DNA of 35,565 nucleotides from contig DVDV01000346.1 in assembly GCA_015296075.1 (NCBI GenBank), forward strand, positions 1 through 35,565. Reading direction: 5' to 3'. Positions 2,926 through 10,675 of this stretch are shown here, piece after piece. Position numbers and translations under genes: made by a program. This DNA comes from Leptolyngbyaceae cyanobacterium M33_DOE_097 (lineage in GTDB: Bacteria; Cyanobacteriota; Cyanobacteriia; Leptolyngbyales; Leptolyngbyaceae). Each line of letters starts with the position of its first letter. Position 1 is the stretch's first letter. The notes beneath the pieces were generated by a model, which worked only from the letters and a program-made list of their open reading frames with translations, did no database searches and was not told the DNA's origin.

Positions 2926-5466
2926 ATGCGAGCGGTTTTAATGGCAGGCGGGTCGGGTACACGGCTACGCCCTCTCACCTGTGATTTGCCAAAACCGATG
3001 GTGCCTGTTTTAAATCGCCCAATCGCAGAACACATCATCAATCTTCTGAAACGCCATCGCATCACCGAAGTGATTGCAACGTTGCATTACCTGCCCGACA
3101 TTTTGCGCGATTACTTCCAAGATGGAGCCGATTTTGGGGTGCAGATGACCTACGCGGTTGAGGAAGACCAGCCCCTGGGTACCGCTGGTTGTGTGAAGAA
3201 TATTGAGGAATTGCTCGATGACACTTTTTTGGTCATTAGTGGCGATTGCATCACTGATTTAGATTTAAGTGCTGCGATTCGATTTCATCGCGATCGCCAG
3301 TCAAAAGCGACGCTGGTGCTGACACGAGTGCCTAACCCAATGGAGTTTGGTCTGGTCATCACCGATAAGGATGGTCGCATCAACCGCTTTTTAGAGAAAC
3401 CTTCTACCAGCGAGGTTTTTTCAGATACGGTCAACACGGGCATTTACATTCTCGAACCTGAAGTCCTGGACTATTTACCGATCAACTTTGAGTCTGACTT
3501 CTCAAAAGACTTGTTTCCCAAACTGCTAGATATGGGTGAGCCAATCTACGGTTACGTTGCCGAAGGCTATTGGTGCGACGTTGGGCATTTAGATGCGTAC
3601 CGTGAGGCTCAGTATGCTGCCTTACAACGGCGTGTAAAGTTGAACTTTTCCTATGAGGAGAGATCGCCCGGTATTTGGATTGGGCAAAACACGTTTATCG
3701 ACCCAACCGCCCACATCGAAGCGCCCAGTGTGATTGGCAGCAATTGCCGGATTGGGCCGCGGGTGCAGATTAGCTCCGGCTCTGTTGTCGGTGATAACGT
3801 GACGGTTGGAGCCGATGCCGAACTTAAACGCCCAATTATTTGGAATGGCAGCATCTTGGGCGAAGAAACACATCTGATTGCCTGCGTCGTTGCGCGGGGA
3901 GCCAGGGTCGATCGCCGCGCTCACATTATGGAAGGGGCGATCGTCGGGCCGCTCACGACAATTGGTGAAGAAGCGCAGGTCAGTCCTGAAGTGAGAATTT
4001 GGCCAAGCAAACGGGTTGAGCCAGGTGCGACCCTCAATATCAACTTGATTTGGGGCCATGCAGCGATGCGCAACCTGTTTGGGCAACGGGGCGTGTCCGG
4101 CTTAGCCAATGTGGATATCACCCCTGAGTTTGCCGTTAAGTTGGGGGCGGCCTATGGCTCAACCCTCAAAACAGGCGCAACGGTCACAGTTTCGCGAGAT
4201 CAGCGCAACATTTCGCGGATGGTGTCGCGATCGCTCATTGCAGGCTTGATGTCGGTTGGTGTGAATGTGCAAAACCTGGAGGCGACGGCGATTCCGGTGG
4301 CGCGATCGGTGGTGCCGACTTTAGGTGTTGCCGGCGGAATCCACGTGCGGGTTCACCCGGATCGCTTTGATCACCTGTTGATTGAATTCTTTGACCCCAA
4401 GGGCATCAACCTCTCAAAAGCACGTGAGAAAAAGATTGAAGGGGCTTTCTTCAAAGAAGACTTTCGGCGGGCGCAGATCAATGAGATTGGCAATGTAGCC
4501 CTGTCGAATCAAGTGCTGGATATTTACAGCCGGGGCTTTGAGCAACACCTGAGTTTAGATGCGATTCGGCATAGCAGCTCGAAAGTTGTAATTGACTATG
4601 CCTACGCGGTGTCGGGTGCCGTTCTACCACTGTTATTAGGGAAGTTTGGCTGTGATGCAGTTGTGCTGAATGCCAGCTTGAGCCAGAAGACCTTGACGAT
4701 GGCCGATCGCGAAGGCTTGCTGAATCAACTAGGGCATGTGGTCGAAGCCTTAAAAGCTAATTTTGGCGTGCAAGTCTCTGCGCATGGTGAGCAACTCATT
4801 TTGGTGGATGATGCCGGAAGTCCGATTCGAGGTGAGATTCTTACCGCTTTGATTACGGAGATGATCTTGACGCACCAACCGCGCGGCACTGTGGTCGTGC
4901 CAGTGCATGTTTCGAGCGCGATCGAGCAAATCGCTCGGAGGCATGATGGGCAGGTGATTCGCACAAAGGCAAACCCGACCGCTTTGATGGAAGCTTGCCA
5001 GAGTCACCCCAATGTTGTGCTAGGTGGAAGTGCTGAAATGGGCTTCATCTTCCCGCAGTTTCACCCCGGCTTTGATGCCATGTTTTGCATTGCCAAGCTA
5101 ATTGAGATTTTGACATTGCAAGAGCGATCGCTCGGTCAAATTCGGGCTGACCTGCCACGCATCTGCCACAAGTCCTACACGGTGCGTTGCCCCTGGGCTG
5201 CAAAAGGCGGGTTGATGCGTCATCTAGTCGAAACCCATTCTGTGGATAGCTTGGAACTGGTTGATGGCGTCAAAATCTTCAACTATCCCCGCGATAGTTG
5301 GGTGTTGATCCTGCCCGACGCAGGTGAACCGTTGGTTCACATCTTCGCCAACAGTAGCGATCGCGGCTGGGTTGACGAAACACTCCGCGAATACCGGATT
5401 CGGGTGCAAGAGTTTGTTGATCACGAGCAAGAAACGGATCGCCAGCTTGAGAGTCAGTTTGCTTGA
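2926..5466 (+). CDS. Mannose-1-phosphate guanylyltransferase / phosphomannomutase-like fusion
   Basis: The 846-residue protein has three parts. Residues 1-235 are a nucleotidyltransferase: MAGGSGTRLRPLT (6-18), LPKPM (21-25), the metal-site SGDCITDLD (105-113), EKP (157-159), NTGIYI (170-175) and WCDVG (216-220). Residues about 250-375 are left-handed beta-helix hexapeptide repeats. Residues about 385-846 have the phosphohexomutase fold (SRDQRNISRMV; GFIFPQFHPGFDAMF at 706-720; SWVLILPDAGEPLVHIF at 791-807). It should make GDP-mannose or a related NDP-sugar for surface glycans. The mutase catalytic loops are degenerate: the usual TASHNP serine loop reads GGIHVRVHPD (470-479), the DxDxDR metal loop reads AHGEQLILVDD (619-629), and the RPSGTEP phosphate site reads LPDAGEP (796-802). 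That domain is therefore probably structural or regulatory. The start has a near-perfect Shine-Dalgarno. Confidence 0.9.
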   Translation: MRAVLMAGGSGTRLRPLTCDLPKPMVPVLNRPIAEHIINLLKRHRITEVIATLHYLPDILRDYFQDGADFGVQMTYAVEEDQPLGTAGCVKNIEELLDDTFLVISGDCITDLDLSAAIRFHRDRQSKATLVLTRVPNPMEFGLVITDKDGRINRFLEKPSTSEVFSDTVNTGIYILEPEVLDYLPINFESDFSKDLFPKLLDMGEPIYGYVAEGYWCDVGHLDAYREAQYAALQRRVKLNFSYEERSPGIWIGQNTFIDPTAHIEAPSVIGSNCRIGPRVQISSGSVVGDNVTVGADAELKRPIIWNGSILGEETHLIACVVARGARVDRRAHIMEGAIVGPLTTIGEEAQVSPEVRIWPSKRVEPGATLNINLIWGHAAMRNLFGQRGVSGLANVDITPEFAVKLGAAYGSTLKTGATVTVSRDQRNISRMVSRSLIAGLMSVGVNVQNLEATAIPVARSVVPTLGVAGGIHVRVHPDRFDHLLIEFFDPKGINLSKAREKKIEGAFFKEDFRRAQINEIGNVALSNQVLDIYSRGFEQHLSLDAIRHSSSKVVIDYAYAVSGAVLPLLLGKFGCDAVVLNASLSQKTLTMADREGLLNQLGHVVEALKANFGVQVSAHGEQLILVDDAGSPIRGEILTALITEMILTHQPRGTVVVPVHVSSAIEQIARRHDGQVIRTKANPTALMEACQSHPNVVLGGSAEMGFIFPQFHPGFDAMFCIAKLIEILTLQERSLGQIRADLPRICHKSYTVRCPWAAKGGLMRHLVETHSVDSLELVDGVKIFNYPRDSWVLILPDAGEPLVHIFANSSDRGWVDETLREYRIRVQEFVDHEQETDRQLESQFA

Positions 5467-5762: not shown

Positions 5763-6236
5763 ATGAACCAGTGCATCCTAATGGCTGAAATTATTCAACC
5801 ACCGGAGCTTCGTTATACGTCTGACACCCAAACACCGATCACAGAAATGGTTGTGCAGTTCCCTGGGTTGCGGTCTGACGACCCACCCTCAACCGTAAAA
5901 GTGATTGGTTGGGGCAATATGGCACAAGAAATTCAGGAAAAATATCACCAGGGCGATCGCGTGTTGATTGAAGGACGCCTCAGCATGAATGTGGTTGATC
6001 GGCCTGAAGGCTTTAAAGAAACGCGAGCCGAGTTAACTGCCCAACGAATTCATGCTCTGGGTGCTGACACACCGTTAGAGATGCCAGCCTCACTGCCTCA
6101 ACCGACGGCAACTCCAACGGCTCCACCCCGCGCAGAGGCTGCACCCGCTAGAAGCAAGTCGTCACCTCGCGCTTCAGAAGCAAAAGCAAGTAAAAAGCCC
6201 GTTGCTCAAGAAGACTTTGATGACATTCCCTTTTAA
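5763..6236 (+). CDS. ssb: Single-stranded DNA-binding protein (cyanobacterial SSB family)
   Basis: A 157-residue protein with an N-terminal OB fold (about 1-105; features include MVVQFPG, VIGWGNMAQEI and GDRVLIEGRL). A Pro/Ala/Ser-rich linker (about 108-148) follows, then the acidic tip DFDDIPF (151-157), the conserved SSB tail used to recruit repair and replication partners. It would bind single-stranded DNA as an oligomer during replication, recombination and repair. The start ATG is preceded by AGGA. It reads alone, with nothing on the same strand close by. Cyanobacteria often carry more than one ssb-like gene, so this may not be the main replicative copy. Confidence 0.88.
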   Translation: MNQCILMAEIIQPPELRYTSDTQTPITEMVVQFPGLRSDDPPSTVKVIGWGNMAQEIQEKYHQGDRVLIEGRLSMNVVDRPEGFKETRAELTAQRIHALGADTPLEMPASLPQPTATPTAPPRAEAAPARSKSSPRASEAKASKKPVAQEDFDDIPF

Positions 6237-8331: not shown

Positions 8332-8423
8332 TTGGGGGTGCCAACCTGTAAGAGCGGTTGCGATCTGAGAGGATAATGGGCAAATGTGTGCCGCACTTTG
8401 CACGTCATTCTTGGATTGAGGTA

Positions 8424-9743
8424 ATGACAACGAACCCCAAAATTATTGTGTTAGATGATGACCCCACTGGCTCTCAGACCGTGCATAGCTGTTTGCTGCT
8501 GACCCAGTGGGATGTCGAAACGCTGCAAATTGGTTTAGCAGACGATTCACCCATCTTCTTTATCCTGACGAATACACGGGCGCTCACCCCCGAAAAAGCT
8601 GCTGCTGTAACGCAAGCGGTGTGTCACAACTTGAAGGACGCGATCGCGGCAGAGCAGATGACTGATTTTTTAGTGGTCAGTCGCTCAGACTCAACCTTGC
8701 GGGGGCACTACCCGGTTGAAACGGATGTTATTGCTCAGGAATTAGGCCCGTTTGATGCGCATTTCCTGGTGCCTGCGTTCTTTGAAGGGGGCCGCACCAC
8801 GCGCGACAGCATTCATTACCTTAAGGTGAATGGGGTTGATACACCCGTTCACGAAACCGAGTTTGCGCGGGACTCGGTGTTTGCCTACCACCACAGTTAC
8901 TTGCCCGATTACGTGGAGGAGAAAACGCAAGGCCGGATCCCAGCGGATCAGGTTGAACGGTTTGTGCTGGCGGATATTCGAGCGGGAGTGTTATCCCGTT
9001 TGCGTAACCTGCAAGACAACCAGTGCTGTGTCGTCGATGGCGAAACCCAGGCAGATTTGAATCAGTTTGCTCAAGAGATTTTGGTTGCGGCAGCTCAAGG
9101 CAAACGGTTTCTGTTTCGTAGTGCGGCCAGTATCCTAACCGCTTTAGCCGCCCTGCCGCCCCAGCCGATCGCCGCTGAAAACATGGCAGAATATGTGCGC
9201 AAGAGCAAACCTGGCGCGGTGATCGTTGGTTCTCACGTCAAGAAAACGACTGAGCAATTAGAGCAGTTACTCAAAGCGCCTGGAACAGAAGGCGTTGAGA
9301 TTGACGTAGCCCGGTTACTAGAACCCGATCAGAAGTCAGCGGTGTTGGATGCCGCGATCGCGGAGGTGAATCGGATTCATGCGGCTGGGAAGACGCCTGT
9401 AATTTACACGAGCCGAAAAGAACTGACCTTTGACGACATCCAAACTCGACTTGATTTTGGTGAAGCGGTGTCTGCTCTGTTGATGGACATCATCCGTCAT
9501 TTGCCGTCAGATATTGGCTTTCTGATTAGCAAAGGTGGCATCACCTCCAATGATACGCTGAGTCAGGGATTGGCTCTGCGCACTGCGCGTCTGTTGGGAC
9601 AGGTGTTGCCGGGGGTGTCGATGGTGCGGACTCCGGTTGATCACCCTCAATTTCCAAACTTGCCAGTTGTCTTGTTTCCCGGTAATGTCGGCGGTTCCGA
9701 TGCTTTAGCCCTGGCTTATCGGCGGTTAACCCGGCAAGGGTAG
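8424..9743 (+). CDS. Four-carbon acid sugar kinase family protein (DUF1537)
   Basis: The N-terminus KIIVLDDDPTGSQTVH and the C-terminal FLISKGGITSNDTL and FPGNVGGSDALALAYRRL match the two-domain DUF1537 kinases, here 439 residues. Members phosphorylate four-carbon acid sugars such as 2-oxo- or 3-oxo-tetronates in threonate or erythronate breakdown (OtnK, DtnK, DenD). The DDDPTG form belongs to a branch whose substrate I cannot name. An ATG at 8424 with GAGG just upstream is preferred over the longer frame from 8358. The next gene, 44 bases downstream, is a beta-hydroxyacid dehydrogenase, the enzyme class that partners DUF1537 in known pathways. No OtnC aldolase or OtnI isomerase gene is nearby. 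Confidence 0.85.
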   Translation: MTTNPKIIVLDDDPTGSQTVHSCLLLTQWDVETLQIGLADDSPIFFILTNTRALTPEKAAAVTQAVCHNLKDAIAAEQMTDFLVVSRSDSTLRGHYPVETDVIAQELGPFDAHFLVPAFFEGGRTTRDSIHYLKVNGVDTPVHETEFARDSVFAYHHSYLPDYVEEKTQGRIPADQVERFVLADIRAGVLSRLRNLQDNQCCVVDGETQADLNQFAQEILVAAAQGKRFLFRSAASILTALAALPPQPIAAENMAEYVRKSKPGAVIVGSHVKKTTEQLEQLLKAPGTEGVEIDVARLLEPDQKSAVLDAAIAEVNRIHAAGKTPVIYTSRKELTFDDIQTRLDFGEAVSALLMDIIRHLPSDIGFLISKGGITSNDTLSQGLALRTARLLGQVLPGVSMVRTPVDHPQFPNLPVVLFPGNVGGSDALALAYRRLTRQG

Positions 9744-9787
9744 CTGAGCAAACCCATCCAATGTTCTGACTCTTCACGGATGCACCC

Positions 9788-10675
9788 ATGAGTACGACTC
9801 AACGACTTGGTTTTATTGGCCTGGGCATTATGGGCAAGCCGATGGCGCACAACCTGCTGCAAGCAGGCTATCGTTTGACCGTGTATAACCGCAGCCGATC
9901 GCCGATGGATGAGTTAGCAGCGGCAGGCGCGGCACAGGCAGACTCACCCCAAGCGGTTGCCGAAAACTCTGATGTGGTGCTGTCTTGTGTGTCGGACTCG
10001 CCCGATGTCGAGGCGATCGCGCTGGGCACTCACGGTCTGATTCATGGCGTGCGACCTGGCATGCTTTACATTGATATGTCTACCATTGCCCCAGCGACGG
10101 CTCGTAAGGTCTTTGGCGCGATGCAAGCGAAAGGGGTGGAGATGCTGGATGCTCCGGTGTCAGGTGGGGACATTGGGGCACAGCAGGGCACACTGTCGAT
10201 CATGGTGGGAGGGGATGAACCTGCCTTTGAGCGCGCGCTACCCATCTTGCAGGTGTTGGGCAAAAATATTGTGCATGTCGGCTCGACTGGAGCCGGACAA
10301 GTGACCAAAGCCTGCAATCAAATTGTGGTTTCAGTCACGGCGCAAGCGGTTGCCGAAGCTTTGATGTTAGCTGAGCAATCAGGGGTAGACCCGGCTAAAG
10401 TGCGAGCAGCGTTGTTAGGTGGGTTTGCCGCCAGCCGAGTGTTAGAAGTTCACGGCCAACGGATGCTGGAGGGCAACTACGCTCCAGGCTTCAAACTGGA
10501 TCTGTTGCGCAAAGACCTCAACATTGTCTTGCAAACCGCCCGTGAAGAACATCTGCCACTGCTGGCTGCCGCTCAAGTCAGTAGCCTGATTGACGCACTC
10601 TTAGCCCAGGGCGAAGGCAACCTGGACACCGCCGCGATCGCCCTGATCTACCAACGTCTCATCACGAAATCGTAA
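9788..10675 (+). CDS. NAD(P)-dependent beta-hydroxyacid dehydrogenase (GarR/LtnD-like)
   Basis: A 295-residue 6-phosphogluconate dehydrogenase-like enzyme. The Rossmann motif is GLGIMG (11-16), the substrate loop is DAPVSGG (121-127), and the catalytic lysine is probably K174 in GAGQVTKACNQ. Relatives include tartronate semialdehyde reductase (GarR), 3-hydroxyisobutyrate dehydrogenase and L-threonate dehydrogenase (LtnD); the sequence alone does not decide between them. Co-orientation with a DUF1537 kinase 44 bases upstream favours a four-carbon acid sugar substrate. It ends three bases before the stop of the convergent aminotransferase, leaving no room for a terminator. Confidence 0.88.
   Translation: MSTTQRLGFIGLGIMGKPMAHNLLQAGYRLTVYNRSRSPMDELAAAGAAQADSPQAVAENSDVVLSCVSDSPDVEAIALGTHGLIHGVRPGMLYIDMSTIAPATARKVFGAMQAKGVEMLDAPVSGGDIGAQQGTLSIMVGGDEPAFERALPILQVLGKNIVHVGSTGAGQVTKACNQIVVSVTAQAVAEALMLAEQSGVDPAKVRAALLGGFAASRVLEVHGQRMLEGNYAPGFKLDLLRKDLNIVLQTAREEHLPLLAAAQVSSLIDALLAQGEGNLDTAAIALIYQRLITKS

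Follow-up and report, generated by a model that had tools for sequence, protein, structure and literature searches.

Phosphohexomutase folds that have lost their catalysis are already known as a kind. Vertebrate PGM5 (aciculin) is an inactive member of the superfamily with another role, and a passage of PMC7761743 describes substrate binding as retained by this dead mutase. In animals, likewise, a live nucleotidyltransferase has a dead sugar-nucleotide domain of similar build as its partner: part of PMC11228364 presents GMPPA as a GDP-mannose-binding paralogue that lacks catalysis and inhibits GMPPB. We studied a further variant, encoded in a contig of 35,565 nucleotides (DVDV01000346.1, the whole of which is called the window) from Leptolyngbyaceae cyanobacterium M33_DOE_097, where one gene joins a sugar-1-phosphate nucleotidyltransferase, a beta-helix and a phosphohexomutase domain that is almost certainly catalytically dead, judging from its residues. 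It differs from PGM5, which retains the serine, the metal site and substrate binding, in appearing to have lost all of these and in being part of a bacterial two-domain enzyme chain. It differs from GMPPA in that the dead part is the mutase and is covalently fused, whereas in GMPPA the dead part is the nucleotidyltransferase. The archaeal-type phosphomannomutases/phosphoglucomutases (PMM/PGM; 1wqa, 9du5 and 2f7l; TIGR03990) resemble the domain in their whole fold, with 25-29% identity and loops of equal length, but in the fusion the catalytic Ser, the metal triad, the sugar-loop Glu and the phosphate loop are replaced and the domain sits behind a nucleotidyltransferase.

A phmmer search against solved structures aligned the domain to the archaeal mutase 1wqa over 436 residues (E-value, E, 1e-56), and a MAFFT alignment with 12 true mutases placed the loops with few or no gaps, so the residue pairs were clear. 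In the latter alignment GxRG became GVSG, [ST]ASHNPxxxNGxK became RVHPDRFDHLLIE, DGDADR became SAHGEQ, GGExSGH became GGSAEMG (amino acids, aa, 700-706) and RxSGTEP became LPDAGEP. Residue by residue, the metal loop DxDxDR paired with S618-A-H620-G-E622-Q623, and R-x-S-G-T of the phosphate loop with L796-P-D798-A-G800. The loops aligned at equal length to those of true mutases, and therefore the loss was by substitution; loss through deletion was ruled out. Misalignment was rejected as well, since phmmer, MAFFT and hhalign placed the loops alike. An earlier note on this DNA had reported three lost loops in the mutase half (4084-5466), namely GGIHVRVHPD (470-479) for the phosphoserine loop, AHGEQLILVDD (619-629) for the metal loop and LPDAGEP (796-802) for the phosphate loop. 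The translation has exactly these letters and all three losses were real, but the first label starts seven residues ahead of the Ser position and the list omitted the sugar loop, the Lys of NGxK and the Arg of GxRG, all of which are lost too.

The same positions were inspected in 171 fusions, made up of 165 from the cyanobacterial phylum (sets of 65, 77 and 23 sequences, with one frameshifted row left out of the 65-sequence set) and six from Actinomycetota and Campylobacterota, taken from plasmid records; a fusion that is intact and still active may exist in other phyla, such as Bacillota, Myxococcota or Chloroflexota. The broken genes L073 and L074 (see below), together with L075 and L077 at contig edges, were left out, and L093, L101 and L107, whose front half is incomplete, entered the domain alignments only. 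As controls we used 18 true mutases, including the source genome's own GlmM, PMM/PGM-like and PGM-like genes (named by similarity), and 18/18 carried SH[NS], D.D.DR, the GE motif and R.S[GN]T. Neither D.D.DR nor R.SGT was found at the aligned positions in any fusion of the three phyla (0/171), and the same count of zero held for Asp at the second metal position, Glu at the sugar-loop position 702 and Arg at the phosphate-loop position; across the fusions the metal Asp triad was left at most as D-x-[NHV]-x-E. The nucleophile Ser was present at its aligned position in nine fusions. Where mutases have [ST]ASHNP the window protein reads RVHPDR, and SHNP occurred in 0/145 fusions. Regular expressions for the Ser loop matched one row among the 171, and five SHSP matches sat near aa 770, outside that loop; the 69 matches of the sugar-loop expression (GETG etc.) lay out of register, not at position 702.

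Loss of the mutase residues is thus general across the sampled fusion family. Sequencing error or recent decay was ruled out by the same state in 171 fusions and by a ratio of non-synonymous to synonymous substitution rates (dN/dS) of 0.05. The alignment with PMM/PGM structures and homologous fusions, proposed in the earlier note, revealed neither a Ser nor an Asp triad conserved elsewhere that stands in for the lost ones. It is therefore very improbable that the protein is the annotated bifunctional guanylyltransferase/phosphomannomutase, its mutase site functional despite being unusual, an account that would also have to accommodate a Ser position left unconserved and the complete absence of D.D.DR and R.SGT. 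The usual two-activity label is probably wrong. With the fold kept, and with catalytic residues absent from the fusions and present in all control mutases, the lost-loop observation proved correct and family-wide, and the reading of the domain as a pseudoenzyme is sound.

That the fold is kept was supported by several comparisons. Pfam placed PGM_PMM_I (383-514), II (534-631) and III (636-743) over cut-off, and the hhalign profile comparison of the domain with mutases gave 100%. An AlphaFold model of the domain, computed from an alignment that also contained true mutases, reached a predicted local distance difference test (pLDDT) score of 91.5 and a predicted template modelling (pTM) score of 0.90; these mutases may bias the model toward a mutase fold, and the phmmer and profile evidence is independent of it. 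Foldseek matched the domain model to the archaeal PMM/PGM 9du5_C (E 3.6e-46, template modelling score 0.86), and VIA, whose list is a re-examination of the Foldseek matches only, superposed it on an archaeal mutase with Z 45.5 and a root mean square deviation of 2.4 over 441 residues. The domain has the alpha-D-phosphohexomutase superfamily fold, with four domains and sequence similarity along its whole length. Positions of all features are collected in Table 1.

Table 1. Location of the fusion gene, its domains and the former catalytic loops in the window.
Feature	Residues (aa)	Position in window	Strand	Sequence and replacements	Evidence
Fusion gene: nucleotidyltransferase, beta-helix, predicted pseudo-phosphohexomutase		2926..5466	+		Single open frame, 846 codons + stop (translation)
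NTP_transferase domain	3-233	2932..3624	+	Catalytic motifs intact: GGSGTRLRPLT, K23, D107, EKP, D218	Pfam over cut-off
Left-handed beta-helix / hexapeptide repeats (LbH)	250-352	3673..3981	+		Pfam over cut-off
Complete phosphohexomutase fold	about 383-830	4072..5415	+		Pfam domains I-III + C-terminal fourth domain in predicted model
Former GxRG loop	389-392	4090..4101	+	GVSG; S391 in place of Arg	MAFFT alignment; 171-fusion count
Former phosphoserine loop + NGxK	470-488	4333..4389	+	GGIHVRVHPDRFDHLLIEF; H477 for Ser, E487 for Lys; new H473, R475	phmmer, MAFFT
Former DxDxDR metal loop	618-623	4777..4794	+	SAHGEQ	phmmer, MAFFT
Former sugar-specificity loop + next stretch	700-717	5023..5076	+	GGSAEMGFIFPQFHPGFD; S702 for Glu, new H713	phmmer, MAFFT
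Former phosphate-binding loop	796-802	5311..5331	+	LPDAGEP; L796 for Arg, D798 for Ser	phmmer, MAFFT

The residues that replaced the catalytic ones were themselves conserved. Among the 171 fusions, H473 was kept in 166, R475 in 168, E487 in 165, E622 in 170, H713 in 164, P797 in 171, D798 in 170 and H805 in 165, and within the cyanobacterial phylum all eight are nearly invariant. From the known loop locations in the mutase fold, these new conserved residues would meet in one cleft. The median dN/dS was 0.052 for the C-terminal half and 0.055 for the N-terminal half (261 pairs); the dead domain is under purifying selection as strong as that on the live half, so that it combines, as a regulatory pseudoenzyme does, purifying selection with an inactivity deduced from residues only. 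The cleft would then not have decayed, since in the cyanobacterial phylum it presents loops of equal length with a different set of conserved residues. Our preferred reading, to which we give a probability of roughly 0.5, is that the domain was remodelled into a module of the nucleotidyltransferase that has no catalysis of its own and serves in regulation or ligand binding. A sugar-1-phosphate nucleotidyltransferase would have acquired a phosphohexomutase by fusion before the sampled fusions diverged, and the mutase would have lost its chemistry; the cleft may now bind a metabolite or a partner and, via the beta-helix, adjust how the nucleotidyltransferase works or assembles, in a manner comparable to the control of GMPPB by dead GMPPA. 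A control module is further supported by the coexistence of real mutases, three in the source genome and one beside a Streptomyces plasmid fusion.

The earlier note had proposed a sugar phosphate as one ligand that the domain may sense, and this proposal was weakened. Positions 391, 487, 623 and 796, which hold Arg or Lys in true mutases, did so in only 6, 0, 27 and 0 of the fusions, respectively, and acids occupied positions 487, 622 and 798 in 165, 170 and 170 of them. A cleft built for phosphate thus appears, from its sequence, to be now largely neutral or acidic, with cations lost and acids gained, which counts against a conventional sensor of hexose phosphates. R475 and the histidines may yet offer phosphate another hold, and any ligand would probably not be a hexose phosphate bound in the usual way. 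A more specific version of the preferred reading, which we advance tentatively and with less conviction than the general one, is that the cleft was rebuilt loop by loop into a site whose ligand is not a hexose phosphate, became fixed across the cyanobacterial phylum and exerts allosteric control on a nucleotide-sugar enzyme, the Actinomycetota fusions being a further rebuilt version.

Conservation within the domain also bears on whether it could serve only as a structural or docking part, holding the nucleotidyltransferase oligomer together or recruiting a live mutase that passes on sugar-1-phosphate, with no small ligand in the cleft. Conservation is strong domain-wide, with W792, M764, Y534, F385, C755 and R514-R515 ranking high; a live mutase or isomerase can adjoin the fusion gene or its unfused relatives; and the match lists contained PDB entries of GlmM-CdaA complexes, in which a mutase fold acts by protein contact. 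The former catalytic loops were, however, more conserved than the remaining domain (mean 0.642 vs 0.566, p 4e-4; 145 sequences, effective number 37), and a pure scaffold need not demand the near invariance of the polar H473, E622 and D798 in cyanobacteria. We regard such a scaffold as possible, although less probable than the remodelled module. Alternatively, since several residues at the catalytic-loop positions are ionisable and nearly invariant, the cleft could be a His/Arg/Glu/Asp active site for a new kind of reaction, which would make the domain a second enzyme within one protein. This is unlikely, as Actinomycetota and Campylobacterota keep the fusion but not the residue set, and neither a matching known chemistry nor a pathway context was found.

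Several observations weigh against the remodelled module itself. The test of loop conservation also scores loops that any fold would need for folding alone. The full-length model was poor (pLDDT 66.7, pTM 0.40), and position 477 is variable (H, D, S, A, T, Y, V). Gene neighbours in cyanobacteria point to no pathway; the neighbour seen in 32/63 loci is an SSB-like gene. Finally, the replacement set differs outside the cyanobacterial phylum, where the six other fusions had H473 in one, R475 in three and E487 in none. Deep members have DANGER or DAHGER as metal loop, with two of the three former metal positions acidic, and the Actinomycetota fusions have DPxGER and do not retain H473, E487 or H713. 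Since the replacements differ between phyla, a single ligand for all fusions is doubtful.

The front half was intact at the sequence level, as the earlier note had held: it presented the PF00483 sugar-1-phosphate nucleotidyltransferase signature GxGTRLxPxT...PKP, the catalytic Lys and the metal Asp residues, and G8, G9, R13, K23, D107, K158 and D218 were found in 171/171 fusions. Its best curated family was the mannose-1-phosphate guanylyltransferase model NF052502 (283.9 bits vs a cut-off of 440), and that of the back half was archaeal GlmM (242 bits vs 439); both scores lie below the cut-offs, therefore neither half belongs to a named equivalog by score. The front half also matched GMPPB (7d72_K) in the PDB. 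The source genome (437 contigs, 6.96 Mb in total) encodes, besides the fusion, gmd, a separate ManC-type match (E 6.8e-85) and a 400-aa relative, which we take to be the UDP-glucose pyrophosphorylase CugP, partly from a family-profile match to a solved UTP-glucose-1-phosphate uridylyltransferase. Some fusion genomes, e.g., G193, have gmd and no ManC match at 1e-60.

The same layout in other phyla, anticipated by the earlier note, was found in the plasmid records of Actinomycetota and Campylobacterota. Sequences L160, L161 and L182-L184 share the architecture of the SCO1388-type 'ManC/ManB' fusions of Actinomycetota and have the same losses, whereas their replacement residues (GGIYVR, GGIALR or GGITLT, and no H713) and gene context differ from those of the cyanobacterial fusions. 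SCO1388 is presumed to be the Streptomyces counterpart of the fusion, sll1496 its Synechocystis form and K16881 the KEGG name of the SCO1388-type fusions. One paper assumes both activities for the Streptomyces counterpart, and from the residues this bifunctional reading appears doubtful. A passage of PMC6585502, on a genome-wide screen, counts SCO1388 as one of the mannosylation genes in which insertions lowered actinorhodin, and the same text also places it among down-modulators. Synechocystis substrain M has a frameshift in sll1496, annotated as a mannose-1-phosphate guanyltransferase, as stated in a section of PMC10068330. Together with the gene content of the source genome, these records suggest a dispensable, conditional or differently specific enzyme.

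A single match over both halves was found in 88/194 sampled genomes of the cyanobacterial phylum, 75/89 in the class of the source organism and 13/105 outside it; fusions from 87 of these 88 genomes were counted, the frameshifted G143 being excluded. Thirteen genomes of the class had no fusion, and by count from the listing 12 of them belong to one family with genomes of 1.6-3.0 Mb. The broken genes have a frameshift near aa 250-269 in G147 (L074), a genome with no gmd match at E 1e-80, and between aa 724 and 779 in G143 (L073); these breaks are possibly recent losses or assembly errors. A scan of genome contigs returned cyanobacterial loci only, and one of viral contigs with the dead domain gave no match. 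In a maximum-likelihood tree, 13 fusions from the three phyla split from 18 mutases with support 100/100, also when the loop columns were removed. This supports a single origin of the dead domains, although long branches, such as that of the Campylobacterota sequence L162, could mislead; a tree of the nucleotidyltransferase half was unresolved. Unfused arrangements also exist. In G021, of the same phylum, a row of genes (L185:3663-7388) encodes a SIS-type isomerase, a 356-aa nucleotidyltransferase and an intact mutase with motifs TASHNPPEYNGFK, DGDADR, GGEESGG and RASGTEP, which falls on another branch of the mutase tree than the fusions, and in Methanohalobium glmM overlaps a nucleotidyltransferase gene. 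Given such pairs, a path from operon to fusion is easy to imagine, speculative as it is.

Around the fusion gene in the window, an SSB-family gene lies downstream (5763-6236), the one whose relatives occur in about half of the 63 cyanobacterial loci examined (see above). Farther on (8358-10675), two genes form an apparent sugar-acid pair: a four-carbon acid sugar kinase-like gene (PF07005/PF17042) and, after it, a 3-hydroxyisobutyrate/2-hydroxy-3-oxopropionate reductase-like gene (PF03446/PF14833). The fusion gene of L212 (G029) is opposed by an antisense open frame that, at 881 codons, exceeds it in length. In the other phyla, the Nonomuraea fusion (L161:3612-7374) starts 4 bases after the end of a CDP-alcohol phosphatidyltransferase gene (PF01066), and the Sulfuricurvum fusion (L162:3369-8141) is flanked by two phospholipase genes, one for phospholipase A and one of the patatin-like kind, the latter overlapping the fusion by 4 bases. 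A Streptomyces plasmid (L182:139-8508) carries genes for a DJ-1/PfpI protein, an AGE-type epimerase and a STAS domain followed by the fusion, each overlapping the next by 4 bases, and a live-looking phosphomannomutase gene nearby on the opposite strand. Part of PMC13118837, a 2026 Streptomyces synteny table, has K16881 clustered with K08744 and K08999. A link of the Actinomycetota fusion to phospholipid-type chemistry is possible.

The earlier note considered the role of the dead domain undescribed, and we likewise found no description of it in the literature searched, which was thin in subscription journals. If the second half of the protein is dead, pathway models that count the fusion as a phosphomannomutase are wrong; 'bifunctional' annotations call for correction. 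Should the rebuilt cleft prove to be a sensor, the supply of nucleotide sugars for cyanobacterial and actinomycete glycans would have a control point there, and an active site would have been converted to control, with intact relatives available for comparison.
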